Below are positions 98 to 2,736 of a DNA stretch of 40,486 nucleotides, piece after piece. Each line of letters begins with the position of its first letter. Within the stretch, counting starts at the first letter, position 1. The stretch covers positions 1-40,486 of the forward strand of contig CASFTV010000030.1 in NCBI GenBank assembly GCA_949297765.1, given 5' to 3'. A model generated the notes under the pieces. That model searched no databases and had not been told where the DNA came from. It saw only the letters and a program-made list of their open reading frames with translations. Origin of the DNA: an uncultured bacterium. Its GTDB lineage: Bacteria; Verrucomicrobiota; Lentisphaeria; Victivallales; UBA1829. The translations under genes and the position numbers were made by a program.

Positions 98-220
98 ACG
101 AAAAATATATTTTTCCCTCAGCCACCGTACAGAAATTCCTCCATTTTCTGTCCTGCAATTCCGGTCTCACGGTTGACACGCCCTGCTTGCGCTGATGTTC
201 AATGGAAGGAGGTTTCATGA
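98..220 (+). pseudogene. Possible 3' remnant of a phage gene cut by the repeat element
   Basis: From the repeat boundary at 98 one frame stays open for 40 codons and ends at TGA 218-220. That stop overlaps the ATG of the next gene (217) as ATGA, the same coupling used at 528/531 and 920/923 in this block. This suggests the tail of an upstream phage gene whose 5' part lies beyond the inserted element. The last half is compositionally similar to its neighbours, while the first 50 bases are AT-rich and less convincing as coding sequence. No family is recognisable, so this could also be ordinary intergenic DNA. Confidence 0.3.
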
Positions 221-531
221 TCAACGAATTGTTTCAGAGCGCAGCGGATTCTCTGCTGGGTTTGTGCGGAGAAGACGCGATTTTGCGAAGCGGAGAATCG
301 GAGGAGCCGGTCCGGATCGCGCCGCTTTCTCTTCTCGGACAGGAGCGGACGGATTCCAACGGATCGACGGCGCGCAGCGTGCGGACGCTGCTTCTCCGTT
401 CCGTCTCCGGAGTCAGATTTCTGCCGGGAAAGAGCCGGATCATTGTATCGGAAGAGGCGAATCTTGTGATCTCCGCATCGGCTCTTCCGGGCGGCGGCCT
501 GTACCGGGTGGAGGTGGAGGTCCTCCAATGA
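217..531 (+). CDS. Small phage protein, possible head-tail connector
   Basis: This encodes 104 residues. I chose ATG 217 because a strong AAGGAGG ribosome-binding site ends 4 nt before it; an in-frame ATG at 202 would bury that site. The product has no signal peptide or membrane segment. It ends in a strand-rich segment (YRVEVEVLQ), as small head-tail joining proteins such as the lambda FII class do. The next two genes are a gp10-like neck protein and a tail terminator-like protein, and in many siphophages a connector gene sits just before these two. The function therefore comes mainly from position, not from a diagnostic motif. The stop overlaps the next start by ATGA, implying coupled translation. 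Confidence 0.45.
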   Translation: MINELFQSAADSLLGLCGEDAILRSGESEEPVRIAPLSLLGQERTDSNGSTARSVRTLLLRSVSGVRFLPGKSRIIVSEEANLVISASALPGGGLYRVEVEVLQ

Positions 532-923
532 AACATTCCTTTTCCCTTCGGGTTCGGAATGCCGACGAGGTGTTCCGGAAACTGGACGAGCGGGCGGCGA
601 AGCTGATCGCGGAAACGGGCGCGGGGCTTTATCAGACGGCTGCCGACGCGACGCCGGTCCGCAGCGGACGCGCTCGGGCGAACTGGCGCTGTTCGATCGG
701 GAGAGCGGAGTATCTTTCCGACGAAAATACGGACTTTGATTCCGGACGCGGACAAGCGGCATTCCAGTCCGTTTCCGCCGGAGATGTTCTCTATGTAACC
801 AATTCGGTTCCCTACATTGAACGGCTGGAGAACGGATCTTCTCTTCAGGCTCCGGCGGGGATTTCCGGGCGTGCATTGTCTGTCTGTCGAGTTAATTTTG
901 AATCGGGGGAGTATTTGCCATGA
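528..923 (+). CDS. HK97 gp10-like phage neck/minor tail protein
   Basis: This encodes 131 residues from ATG 528, which overlaps the preceding stop as ATGA. The sequence has the layout of the HK97 gp10 family: an N-terminal helix rich in charged residues, then TPVRSGRARANW, then a segment with VLYVTNSVPYIERLENGSS followed by QAPAG. The motifs (P-V-x-[ST]-G-x-[AL]-R-x-[NS]-W and the Y-x-x-x-[LI]-E-x-G-x-S-x-Q-A-P-x-G block) are the family hallmark. In phages of this type the protein sits at the head-tail junction of a long non-contractile tail. Its length is normal for the family. A longer frame that starts upstream at 195 overlaps the previous gene and is not credible. Confidence 0.8.
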   Translation: MKHSFSLRVRNADEVFRKLDERAAKLIAETGAGLYQTAADATPVRSGRARANWRCSIGRAEYLSDENTDFDSGRGQAAFQSVSAGDVLYVTNSVPYIERLENGSSLQAPAGISGRALSVCRVNFESGEYLP

Positions 924-1321
924 TCGCATTGATTTCGATGAAGGAACGGATCCGTTCGTATCTGTTTTCGCATACGGGAGTGACTCCGGAGCGTCTTGCC
1001 TGCGGGGGAGGGGGGATTGCACCGTCCGGCGGAATGTGGTTCCGGGAGACTTTTTCAGAATTCACCGTCGAATATCCGGCCCAGTTTTCGTGGAGATGTT
1101 CCGGATCGGCGGTCTACGAGGTGTTCCAGAGCGCCGATGCCGATTTCCGCGAGGCGGAGGAACTCTGCCAGAAGATCGGCGATGCGTTTCTCCCGCCTCT
1201 TCTGCTTGCCGGTGAAGGTTTCTGCATTCAGATTCAGCGGATTGCGTTTCCTTCCACGGGGCATGAAGACGCATGGAACCGTGCGTCGGTACGCATCACA
1301 TTTTCCGCTTTTCCGGTCTGA
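920..1321 (+). CDS. Phage tail terminator-like protein
   Basis: This encodes 133 residues and starts at ATG 920, overlapping the gp10-like stop as ATGA. An N-terminal helical segment (MKERIRSYLFS) leads into beta-strands and a conserved-looking end (NRASVRITFSAFPV), the usual pattern of small tail terminator/gpU-like proteins that cap the tail tube at the neck. The assignment rests on size, strand pattern and position straight after the gp10-like gene; no residue-level signature proves it. The gene is followed after 5 nt by the large terminase, which is not the usual next gene, since a major tail protein would be expected here. Confidence 0.5.
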   Translation: MIALISMKERIRSYLFSHTGVTPERLACGGGGIAPSGGMWFRETFSEFTVEYPAQFSWRCSGSAVYEVFQSADADFREAEELCQKIGDAFLPPLLLAGEGFCIQIQRIAFPSTGHEDAWNRASVRITFSAFPV

Positions 1322-1326
1322 AGGCG

Positions 1327-2736
1327 ATGGACGTTGTTCTTCACCGGAAACAGTCGCTCGCATTTTCCAGCGAGGCGACGGAAATTCTCTACGGCGGAGC
1401 GGCGGGAGGCGGAAAAAGTCACCTTCTGCGGGTCAAAGCGATTGCTCTTGCTCTTGCGTATCCGAAAACCCAGATCTACCTGTTCCGCCGCTTCTACTCG
1501 GAGCTGATCCGGAATCATATGGACGGCCCGAACGGATTCCGCATGCTTCTGGATTCGTTTCTCCAGAGCGGAGAATGCCGGATCACCGCGTCTCCGCCCT
1601 CCATCCGTTTCCGGAACGGATCGGCAATTTTTCTCTGTCCCTGCCGCCTGGAACACGATGTGATGAAATATCAGGGCGTCGAGATCCATGCGCTCCTGAT
1701 CGACGAACTGACGCATTTCACGGAAGGTGTCTACCGCGCTCTCCGCGCCCGCTGCCGGATGCCGGCCGATCTGAAAAAAGAGTCCCCTTTACCGCCGCTT
1801 CCGCTGGTTCTGAGCGGAGCGAATCCGGGCGGTCCCGGACATAACTGGGTCAAGGCGGCGTTCATCGACTTCGCCGAACCGATGGAAATCCGCCGGATGC
1901 CGAAGGAGGAAGGCGGCATGCTGCGGCAGTACATTCCCGCCCGTCTGGAAGACAATCCGAGCCTGGATGCGGAGGAGTATTCGGCACGCCTGCTCGGGCT
2001 TCGTTCGCCGTATCTGGTGAAGGCGATGCTCGAGGGATGCTGGGATATCGTGGCAGGGGGAATGTTCGACGATCTCTGGGATCCGGAGGTCCATGTCGTG
2101 GCTCCGTTTGCAATTCCACACTCATGGAAACTTGACCGCTCATTCGACTGGGGCGCCTCGAAGCCGTACAGCATCGGGTTCTGGGCGGAATCGGACGGCT
2201 CCGATGCCCGTCTCGACGACGGCTCCTCCCTCCACACTCTGCGGGGCGACCTTTTCCGCATCGCCGAAATCTACGGCTGGAATGGTGTGCCGAACGAAGG
2301 GTGCGGCCACACTCCGTCGGAAATCGCCCGCCTGATCCTTGAAAAACTGGAGATCCTCGGTTTCGGACGCCGCATTCAGGCAGGTCCCGCCGACAATTCC
2401 ATCTTCGATGCTTCCGGCCGCGTCTCCATCGCTTCCGACATGGAACGTCTTGGCATTCGCTGGCTTCGTTCGGACAAGTCTCCCGGCTCCCGGAAACGCG
2501 GCTGGGTGCTTCTGCGCCAGATGCTCAAGGGCAGTCTTTCCCGGGAAAGTCCGGGACTGTTTGTCTTCCGGAGCTGTCCGCAGTTCATCCGCACCCTGCC
2601 GACCCTCCCGCGCGACAGCCGCGACCCGGACGATATCGACACCGCCTCCGAAGACCATATTGCCGACGAAACCCGCTATCGGATTCTCTCCTCCTCCCGC
2701 CGGGCGTCCAGCGGCGGTGTCCGCGGCCTGCTGTAA
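1327..2736 (+). CDS. terL: Phage terminase large subunit (DNA-packaging ATPase/nuclease)
   Basis: This encodes 469 residues from ATG 1327, 5 nt after the previous stop; an in-frame ATG at 1273 would overlap that gene by 49 nt. The protein is the motor that pumps phage DNA into proheads and cuts it. The N-terminal ATPase has a Walker A motif (GGAAGGGKS, residues 23-31) and a Walker B motif (LLIDEL, D126/E127). The C-terminal RNase H-like nuclease shows its expected acidic residues: D274 in SFDWG, D356 in PADNS and D447 in HIADETRY. Length and motifs indicate an intact enzyme. No small terminase, portal, protease or capsid gene is adjacent. Base composition matches the chromosome. The gene ends 25 nt before a convergent chromosomal gene, so the phage block stops here. 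Confidence 0.9.
   Translation: MDVVLHRKQSLAFSSEATEILYGGAAGGGKSHLLRVKAIALALAYPKTQIYLFRRFYSELIRNHMDGPNGFRMLLDSFLQSGECRITASPPSIRFRNGSAIFLCPCRLEHDVMKYQGVEIHALLIDELTHFTEGVYRALRARCRMPADLKKESPLPPLPLVLSGANPGGPGHNWVKAAFIDFAEPMEIRRMPKEEGGMLRQYIPARLEDNPSLDAEEYSARLLGLRSPYLVKAMLEGCWDIVAGGMFDDLWDPEVHVVAPFAIPHSWKLDRSFDWGASKPYSIGFWAESDGSDARLDDGSSLHTLRGDLFRIAEIYGWNGVPNEGCGHTPSEIARLILEKLEILGFGRRIQAGPADNSIFDASGRVSIASDMERLGIRWLRSDKSPGSRKRGWVLLRQMLKGSLSRESPGLFVFRSCPQFIRTLPTLPRDSRDPDDIDTASEDHIADETRYRILSSSRRASSGGVRGLL

Follow-up and report, generated by a model that had tools for sequence, protein, structure and literature searches.

Four phage-type genes in a Lentisphaeria genome probably form one unit of a dispersed gene transfer agent

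The stretch of DNA analysed here, referred to as the window, is 40,486 nt long and comprises the whole of contig CASFTV010000030.1 (G000:C30:1-40486) in the genome of an uncultured Victivallales bacterium (GCA_949297765.1, here G000; 4.23 Mb in 92 contigs). Near its left end, four stop-free open reading frames (ORFs) overlap or adjoin one another on the plus strand (217-531, 528-923, 920-1321 and 1327-2736). They are preceded by a nonamer, CGGTTGACA (170-178, plus strand), which is common to the dispersed phage-type gene blocks described below and ends 38 nt from the start codon of the first gene, gene A. The original prediction, made from the letters alone, had described phage neck genes directly before a complete large terminase, tightly coupled, free of frameshifts and of host-like composition, with the chromosome resuming within 25 nt. 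This description holds: all four genes are intact, the G+C contents of the first three kilobases (56, 59 and 61%) lie inside the window range of 49–64%, and a convergent 68-aa ORF with a Pfam match to the Nif11 domain (2762-2968) ends 25 nt past the terminase stop codon. Nif11 leaders are often part of peptide natural products; together with a U32 peptidase gene, this ORF represents the host-type genes found 3′ of the terminase. The window begins at a contig end. Because gene A has a ribosome-binding site (RBS) as well as CGGTTGACA, the four-gene unit does not look cut, and the locus is not a prophage edge.

Gene B (131 aa, 528-923) is a Neck1/tail completion protein of the HK97 gp10-like type (PHROG 169, E 5.9e-24); a home-made Neck1 profile included the window protein itself and was not used for this identity. 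The last gene (469 aa, 1327-2736) encodes the large terminase, TerL (PHROG 979, E 8.8e-28), with ATPase and nuclease motif residues present: K30, E127, D274, D356, D436 and D438, which we take to be the P-loop lysine, the Walker-B-type glutamate and candidate nuclease aspartates, are invariant in all eight aligned TerLs. Gene C (133 aa, 920-1321) matched tail terminators (Tc1) in PHROG 179 at E 0.015 and a phage terminator profile at 11.2 bits. Profile scans gave no PHROG or Pfam match for gene A (104 aa, 217-531), and a profile of the head–tail stopper (head closure, Hc1) scored 15.2–18.8 bits against the copies of three relatives and a weak 0.5 bits against gene A itself. It is the structures predicted by AlphaFold, built with 8 aligned sequences for gene A and 10 for gene C (predicted local distance difference test scores 81 and 85, respectively), that settle the identities of gene A as a stopper and gene C as a tail terminator. 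The gene C model matched 29 PDB chains at E ≤ 0.001, almost all neck or tail-terminator proteins. Among the 50 matches listed, the top template modelling (TM) score was 0.76, to the T1 stopper–tail terminator, and lambda gpU and chain 6tba_4A of RcGTA, the gene transfer agent (GTA) of Rhodobacter capsulatus, were also present. Four PDB chains at E ≤ 0.001 (lambda neck/portal, SaPI1 neck and Pam3 neck) were matched by the gene A model, with a top TM score of 0.78 to the phage Chi neck among the matches listed; PBSX XkdH and RcGTA chain 6tba_3A were among its weaker matches, and unrelated folds appeared from E 0.015 onward.

The original prediction had asked whether portal and capsid genes exist upstream of the cassette, where a complete prophage of normal order might lie. 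Both genes are present in G000 on other contigs, as are the small terminase, TerS, and tail-type genes; as the portal and the major capsid protein (MCP) sit elsewhere among chromosomal genes, a normal-order prophage upstream was rejected. In related phages, this TerL is accompanied by a portal of PHROG 145/DUF4055; the only copy of that family in G000 (465 aa) is a lone gene between nfo- and argB-like genes on contig C8. Here and below, names of chromosomal neighbours (nfo, argB, argG, ftsA, pyrH, frr, ppk and others) come from reading the translations by eye. The MCP gene lies in a scaffold–MCP–x–Ad1 block beside an argG-like gene on contig C1. Its product shares 57% identity with the MCP of a phage-type region in another genome, G041, and 75–78% with those of three species (G010, G017 and G023) of another genus (g8) in the same family as G000. 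We call G000 and these three genomes, all of them drafts, the carriers. Ad1 of G000 matched PHROG 477 at E 1e-23, and the scaffold of G010 matched PHROG 206 at E 3.1e-16. TerL, portal, MCP and TerS occupy separate contigs (C30, C8, C1 and C5) amid chromosomal genes, and the virion genes of G000 do not form one contiguous element, as those of a functional prophage would.

The nonamer CGGTTGACA was first noticed in the sequences upstream of these blocks, and each of the 12 blocks that had been identified by homology is closely preceded by it. It occurred 15 times in the 460,584 nt of loci then gathered, 14 times just 5′ of stopper, portal or scaffold genes or of a MuF-like stub (G010 and G023) and once elsewhere; the MuF-like stub of G017 is preceded by a one-base variant, TGGTTGACA. 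Across 19 sites, which include orthologues and are not independent, the distance from the end of the element to the start codon was 30–59 nt (at two sites, the count ran to a second ATG, four bases downstream). Taken alone, the copy in the window proves nothing, because one copy was found where 0.25 were expected and 24 of 100 shuffles had at least one. In the flanks of the nonamer, every aligned column carried at most 0.83 bits, and none resembled a −10 box. As a normal −35/−10 arrangement would, at 30 nt from the start codon, place the transcript start at or behind the RBS, CGGTTGACA is probably not a plain sigma-70 −35 box. The phage-type region of G041 holds an exact copy (L025, position 16538) that starts 85 nt before its scaffold gene, farther than in the dispersed loci. 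The element may thus be an old phage promoter, which suggests that it descends from the ancestral phage. In L215, L217 and L218, a short GC hairpin followed by T6 (CGGCATGA(A/G)GCCGCTTTTTT) lies between the element and the scaffold RBS; it is kept in three species and looks like an attenuator or terminator.

We also took 79 stretches of G000 regardless of their content (1,575,867 nt). These held 12 exact copies of CGGTTGACA, 5 of them in promoter position, and these five led to five new loci, four with phage homology and one assigned by position only. In all of the G000 sequence read (1,691,885 nt), 8 of 15 copies were promoter-placed, and each of the eight stands before a block of the set. 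The enrichment ranks third among nonamers with at least four promoter-position copies (binomial 1.9e-9, uncorrected, with three of the eight known before). At the C5 locus, a 108-aa TerS gene just upstream of an ftsA-like gene matched the immediate upstream neighbour of TerL in the G041 region (1.8e-25, 41% over 102 aa); helix-turn-helix matches of the G000 TerS were weak and sub-threshold. The C1 locus, at about 288–291 kb, has three genes, the first of which (318 aa) matched a gene of the phage-type region of two further genomes, G028 and G029, at 1.1e-10, the others having no family match; the single 390-aa gene of the C3 locus matched, at 1.6e-8, the gene that follows the putative tape measure there. 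The E-values for the TerS, 318-aa and 390-aa genes are against the ORFs of the gathered loci, a small database. A collagen-repeat protein at the C6 locus matched tail-fibre PHROGs at 2.1e-15; the other gene at this locus matched Mtd_N weakly (0.0014). The C4 locus consists of three small genes in the places of tail tube, chaperone and tape measure, with a weak PHROG tape-measure match (0.022) for the 100-aa third gene. Seven of the 15 copies were not promoter-placed: according to the ORF listings, those in L243, L282, L299 (groEL-like), L303 and L316 (purD-like) lie inside ORFs, that in L319 lies inside an ORF of doubtful coding status, and that in L296 has no ORF after it. One-mismatch variants, tried at eight of the nine positions, gave 12 promoter-placed sites; inspection by eye showed no clear virion gene at any of them. 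In total, with 40% of the genome read, the set in G000 amounts to at least eight loci on seven contigs and 19 genes, counting every block gene; seven of the eight blocks lie inside contigs, flanked by ordinary chromosomal genes.

TerL matches were found in 22 of 61 genomes, the close ones being in G023 and G010 (67% identity), G041 (63%) and G028/G029 (51%), together with a G017 copy that is cut by a contig end; at E 1e-40, TerL was present in 6 of 137 genomes of the order. The portal family was found in 7 of 13 genomes, once in each of the four carriers and in the three with phage-type regions (G041, G028 and G029), and it was absent from the three congeners of G000 and three other family members among those 13. 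The MCP of G041 gave strong matches in all five genomes searched; the MCP query matched only two contigs, of the GWF2_44_16 type, among viral contigs and none in the phage collection. The scaffold–MCP–x–Ad1 block is present in all four carriers, near pyrH–frr–ppk in G010, G017 and G023, where the portal is a lone gene adjoining peroxiredoxin and DNA-ligase genes. The neighbours of the portal and of the MCP block are constant among these three species and different in G000. The two genera therefore have in common a derived head-gene split, at different chromosomal sites. A conserved gene order in relatives, which the original prediction had proposed to look for, was found in part: a stand-alone stopper-to-TerL cassette exists in G010, G017 and G023, in the order radical-SAM gene, stopper homologue, 138-aa gene in the terminator's place and TerL, with no space for a Neck1 gene. 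The 138-aa gene has no clear family match, and the terminator profile does not match it. The radical-SAM gene is the sole neighbour common to the three (two contigs end just past it, the third inside TerL), and it is not part of the set, as CGGTTGACA sits between it and the gene A homologue.

No internal stop was seen in any gene copy examined, and the ratio of nonsynonymous to synonymous substitution rates (dN/dS), also proposed as a check, points to purifying selection. By the Nei–Gojobori method within the other genus, where several dS values exceed 1 and the estimates are rough, dN/dS was 0.063 for TerL (one pair), 0.039–0.062 for the portal, 0.013–0.069 for the MCP, 0.092–0.140 for the scaffold, 0.095–0.246 for Ad1, 0.171–0.202 for the stopper, 0.115–0.294 for x, 0.107–0.148 for the gene in the terminator's place (two pairs, the third being saturated) and 0.209 for the MuF-like stub (one pair, two being saturated). 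Host genes gave 0.007–0.009 (pyrH), 0.029–0.054 (frr), 0.059–0.077 (ppk) and 0.072–0.126 (radical-SAM). As most G000 pairs were saturated, selection in G000 itself was judged from intact frames and identity. Identity between G000 and the other genus was 75–78% for the MCP, 67% for TerL, 59–61% for the portal, 46–48% for Ad1, 40–42% for the scaffold, 27–30% for the stopper and 26–28% for x, compared with 76–77% for host frr and 72% for argJ. Portal, MCP and stopper identities group the three species of the other genus as host ppk does. These sequence comparisons show purifying selection on genes of the set in that genus.

Together, these data make it probable that the four genes of the window are one transcription unit of a dispersed GTA that is run as one regulon. 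This reading starts from the identities of the head and packaging genes, their dispersal, their common element and the selection on them in another genus, and from these we infer co-expression, assembly, random packaging and delivery. The ancestor would have been a single DUF4055-portal siphophage whose virion genes were split apart and have been retained at separate, small chromosomal loci, every one with CGGTTGACA. A common regulator, such as an alternative sigma factor, an activator or a dedicated polymerase, might act on the element to switch on all loci together. Scaffold and MCP would then build a head on the portal, TerS and TerL would fill it with DNA, and Ad1, stopper, Neck1 and tail terminator would seal it and attach a short, fibre-bearing tail. 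As the genes lie at distant sites, no headful could carry the set, and the packaged DNA would be host DNA; because no packaged piece holds the set, this arrangement excludes a self-propagating phage. A benefit to the host population is what selection could keep, as argued for GTAs. The attributes of a GTA, as listed in the accessible text of PMC9662315, are that it is homologous to tailed phages, endogenised, often at several loci, and inherited mostly vertically, that its heads cannot hold the whole gene set, and that it packages mostly random host DNA and delivers it. From this list, the set in G000 shows homology to tailed-phage virions and full endogenisation, in eight loci on seven contigs amid chromosomal genes. 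It is built and kept like a GTA, and its membership awaits particles. We lean, by a little over even chances, towards a stronger version: a fully atomised GTA in Lentisphaeria, in which every head, packaging and tail module would stand at its own site, joined by CGGTTGACA without a conserved sigma-70 −10 box, the element would read out the complete parts list, and a tape measure of about 100 aa would give one of the shortest siphovirus-like tails.

Several observations weigh against a dispersed GTA. The set is known from genes alone, not from particles, packaged DNA or transfer. It is sparse in the order: with TerL as marker, and G017 counted from a separate search, 4 of 137 genomes carry it. 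A close TerL and the portal are both missing from three congeners of G000, so loss or horizontal spread is frequent. In the 40% of G000 that was read, neither a lysis gene nor a regulator was recognised; promoter position was defined with the hits already in view. For tail tube and tape measure there are only candidates (a 144-aa ORF and a 100-aa ORF, the latter with PHROG 1538 at E 0.022); PHROGs, Pfam and PDB gave no match for the 144-aa ORF, which also does not match the gene that occupies the tail-tube position in the G028/G029 region. The match of the collagen-type fibre is partly repeat-based. A full-length MuF gene was not found in the four carriers, three of which have a stub of 65–68 aa.

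Of the three possibilities raised by the original prediction, a rearranged phage remnant kept under selection, a satellite and a GTA-like locus, the last is favoured. A satellite is not, since the partner genes are themselves chromosomal loci and just as isolated; this was judged by partner-gene locations, with no search for satellite-specific genes such as integrase. The remnant was right on selection (TerL dN/dS 0.063 in one pair of relatives), but the locus belongs, as one module, to a dispersed set and is not a leftover. A domesticated particle with another job under the same shared control, either a PBSX-like killer whose packaging of host DNA is incidental or one that serves DNA export, is an unlikely alternative. 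It would require the same parts, fibre-type genes are present, and XkdH of PBSX is among the weaker matches of the stopper model; PBSX packages evenly dispersed chromosomal fragments, according to the accessible text of PMC12946183. Killing alone, however, needs neither TerL and portal under strong purifying selection nor TerS, and no test result here favours killing.

We consider it very improbable that the loci are pieces of a scrambled, decaying prophage, scattered by recombination with their phage promoters retained. The CGGTTGACA copy before the scaffold gene of the G041 region would suit such an origin, as would the poor conservation between genera of several small connector and head genes (stopper 27–30%, x 26–28%), but decay is already contradicted by selection: there is no stop in the copies examined, dN/dS is far below 1 in three species, and the head-gene split is identical in two genera. 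Least credible of all is an assembly or binning artefact in which the pieces of one ordinary prophage were misjoined to host contigs. The assemblies are drafts and the window starts at a contig end, yet seven of the eight G000 blocks lie within contigs between ordinary chromosomal genes, and in three assemblies the portal and MCP blocks have the same flanking genes each time.

As for known systems, RcGTA keeps one main head–tail cluster, and PBSX of Bacillus subtilis is one clustered prophage-like element. The gene set here is dispersed, unlike PBSX, and differs from RcGTA in that its head, packaging and tail modules occupy at least eight loci, every one with a separate copy of CGGTTGACA, and in its phage and host lineages. 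RcGTA (Rhodogtaviriformidae) is scattered over five loci, as far as the accessible text of PMC9662315 describes it, and is alike in that phage-derived head and tail genes are fixed in the chromosome at several loci; the models of genes A and C both had RcGTA chains among their matches. In BhGTA/VSH-1 of Brachyspira (Brachygtaviriformidae), the same text places terL outside a structural cluster of 16.3 kb; terL is likewise apart from the portal and MCP genes here, but no such cluster was seen in the 40% of G000 read. The likeness to PBSX, described in PMC12946183 (accessible text) as a phage-like element packaging host DNA, would lie in that packaging. Acinetobacter phage SH-Ab 15497 has a homologous TerL (47% identity) and the connector families Ad1, Hc1 and Tc1, and its annotated, canonical order is TerL–portal–head protein–scaffold–MCP–x–Ad1–Hc1–Ne1–Tc1–tail. 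The A–B–C order of the window is the same, with TerL next where the phage has its major tail protein; the phage differs in being one 43 kb replicon with another MCP family (PHROG 247) and an 860-aa tape measure. G041 (Lentisphaerae bacterium GWF2_44_16, MHBF01000195.1) holds the closest relatives after the other genus (TerL 63%, portal 48%, MCP 57%, TerS 41%) and likewise has one CGGTTGACA copy before the scaffold, but its genes are clustered as TerS–TerL–portal–MuF–scaffold–MCP, with one opposite-strand ORF between TerL and portal.

Distribution of the components of a virus-like particle among at least eight chromosomal sites is expected of a DNA-shuttling GTA, not of a virus, and domestication would have gone further than in RcGTA, as the phage gene order is lost while selection still keeps head and packaging parts. 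GTAs have been characterised in few lineages, and their bioinformatic detection is hindered in part because they resemble phage remnants and may spread over one- or two-gene loci (PMC11841831, accessible text). Among the papers listed in searches of open PMC literature, none reported a GTA from this lineage, which has members from the animal gut; one carrier is a sheep-colon genome. The shared cis element, which ties the pieces together, provides a means of locating GTAs that are scattered, as well as a regulon open to testing.

Further queries concerned other head and tail families. No dispersed partner was found in G000, G010, G017 or G023 with the MCP (A1) and tail tube (A2) of the SH-Ab lineage, queries that had no positive control, with the PHROG 1328 MCP, which did match in G028, or with PF10145. 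PF13550 gave three matches only (E 0.13–0.29), two in 1254-aa host-looking proteins and the third on G023:C178. PF20155 had matches at E ≤ 1 in all six genomes, one of them above the cut-off, a 921-aa tape-measure gene (E 5.7e-24); its contig (L239; G000:C72, 10193 bp) resembles a Mu-like phage fragment and was taken as a separate phage. The region of G029:C3 (L167, L171) and G028:C2 (L168, L172) is rearranged, with TerL followed directly by the 1084-aa putative tape measure, and contains a reverse-transcriptase-like ORF of 355 aa, identified by eye, that is perhaps a diversity-generating element; no exact CGGTTGACA copy was found in the stretches of it that were read. The MuF-like stubs (L202, G017:C35:13688-13885; L203, G023:C11:4340-4657; L204, G010:C39:15306-15512) are stand-alone proteins that correspond to the zinc-type core at the C terminus of MuF head proteins (the G010 copy matched PF04233 at 6.3e-7). 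They adjoin chromate-transporter-like genes in G010 and G023 and are probably a further member of the set.

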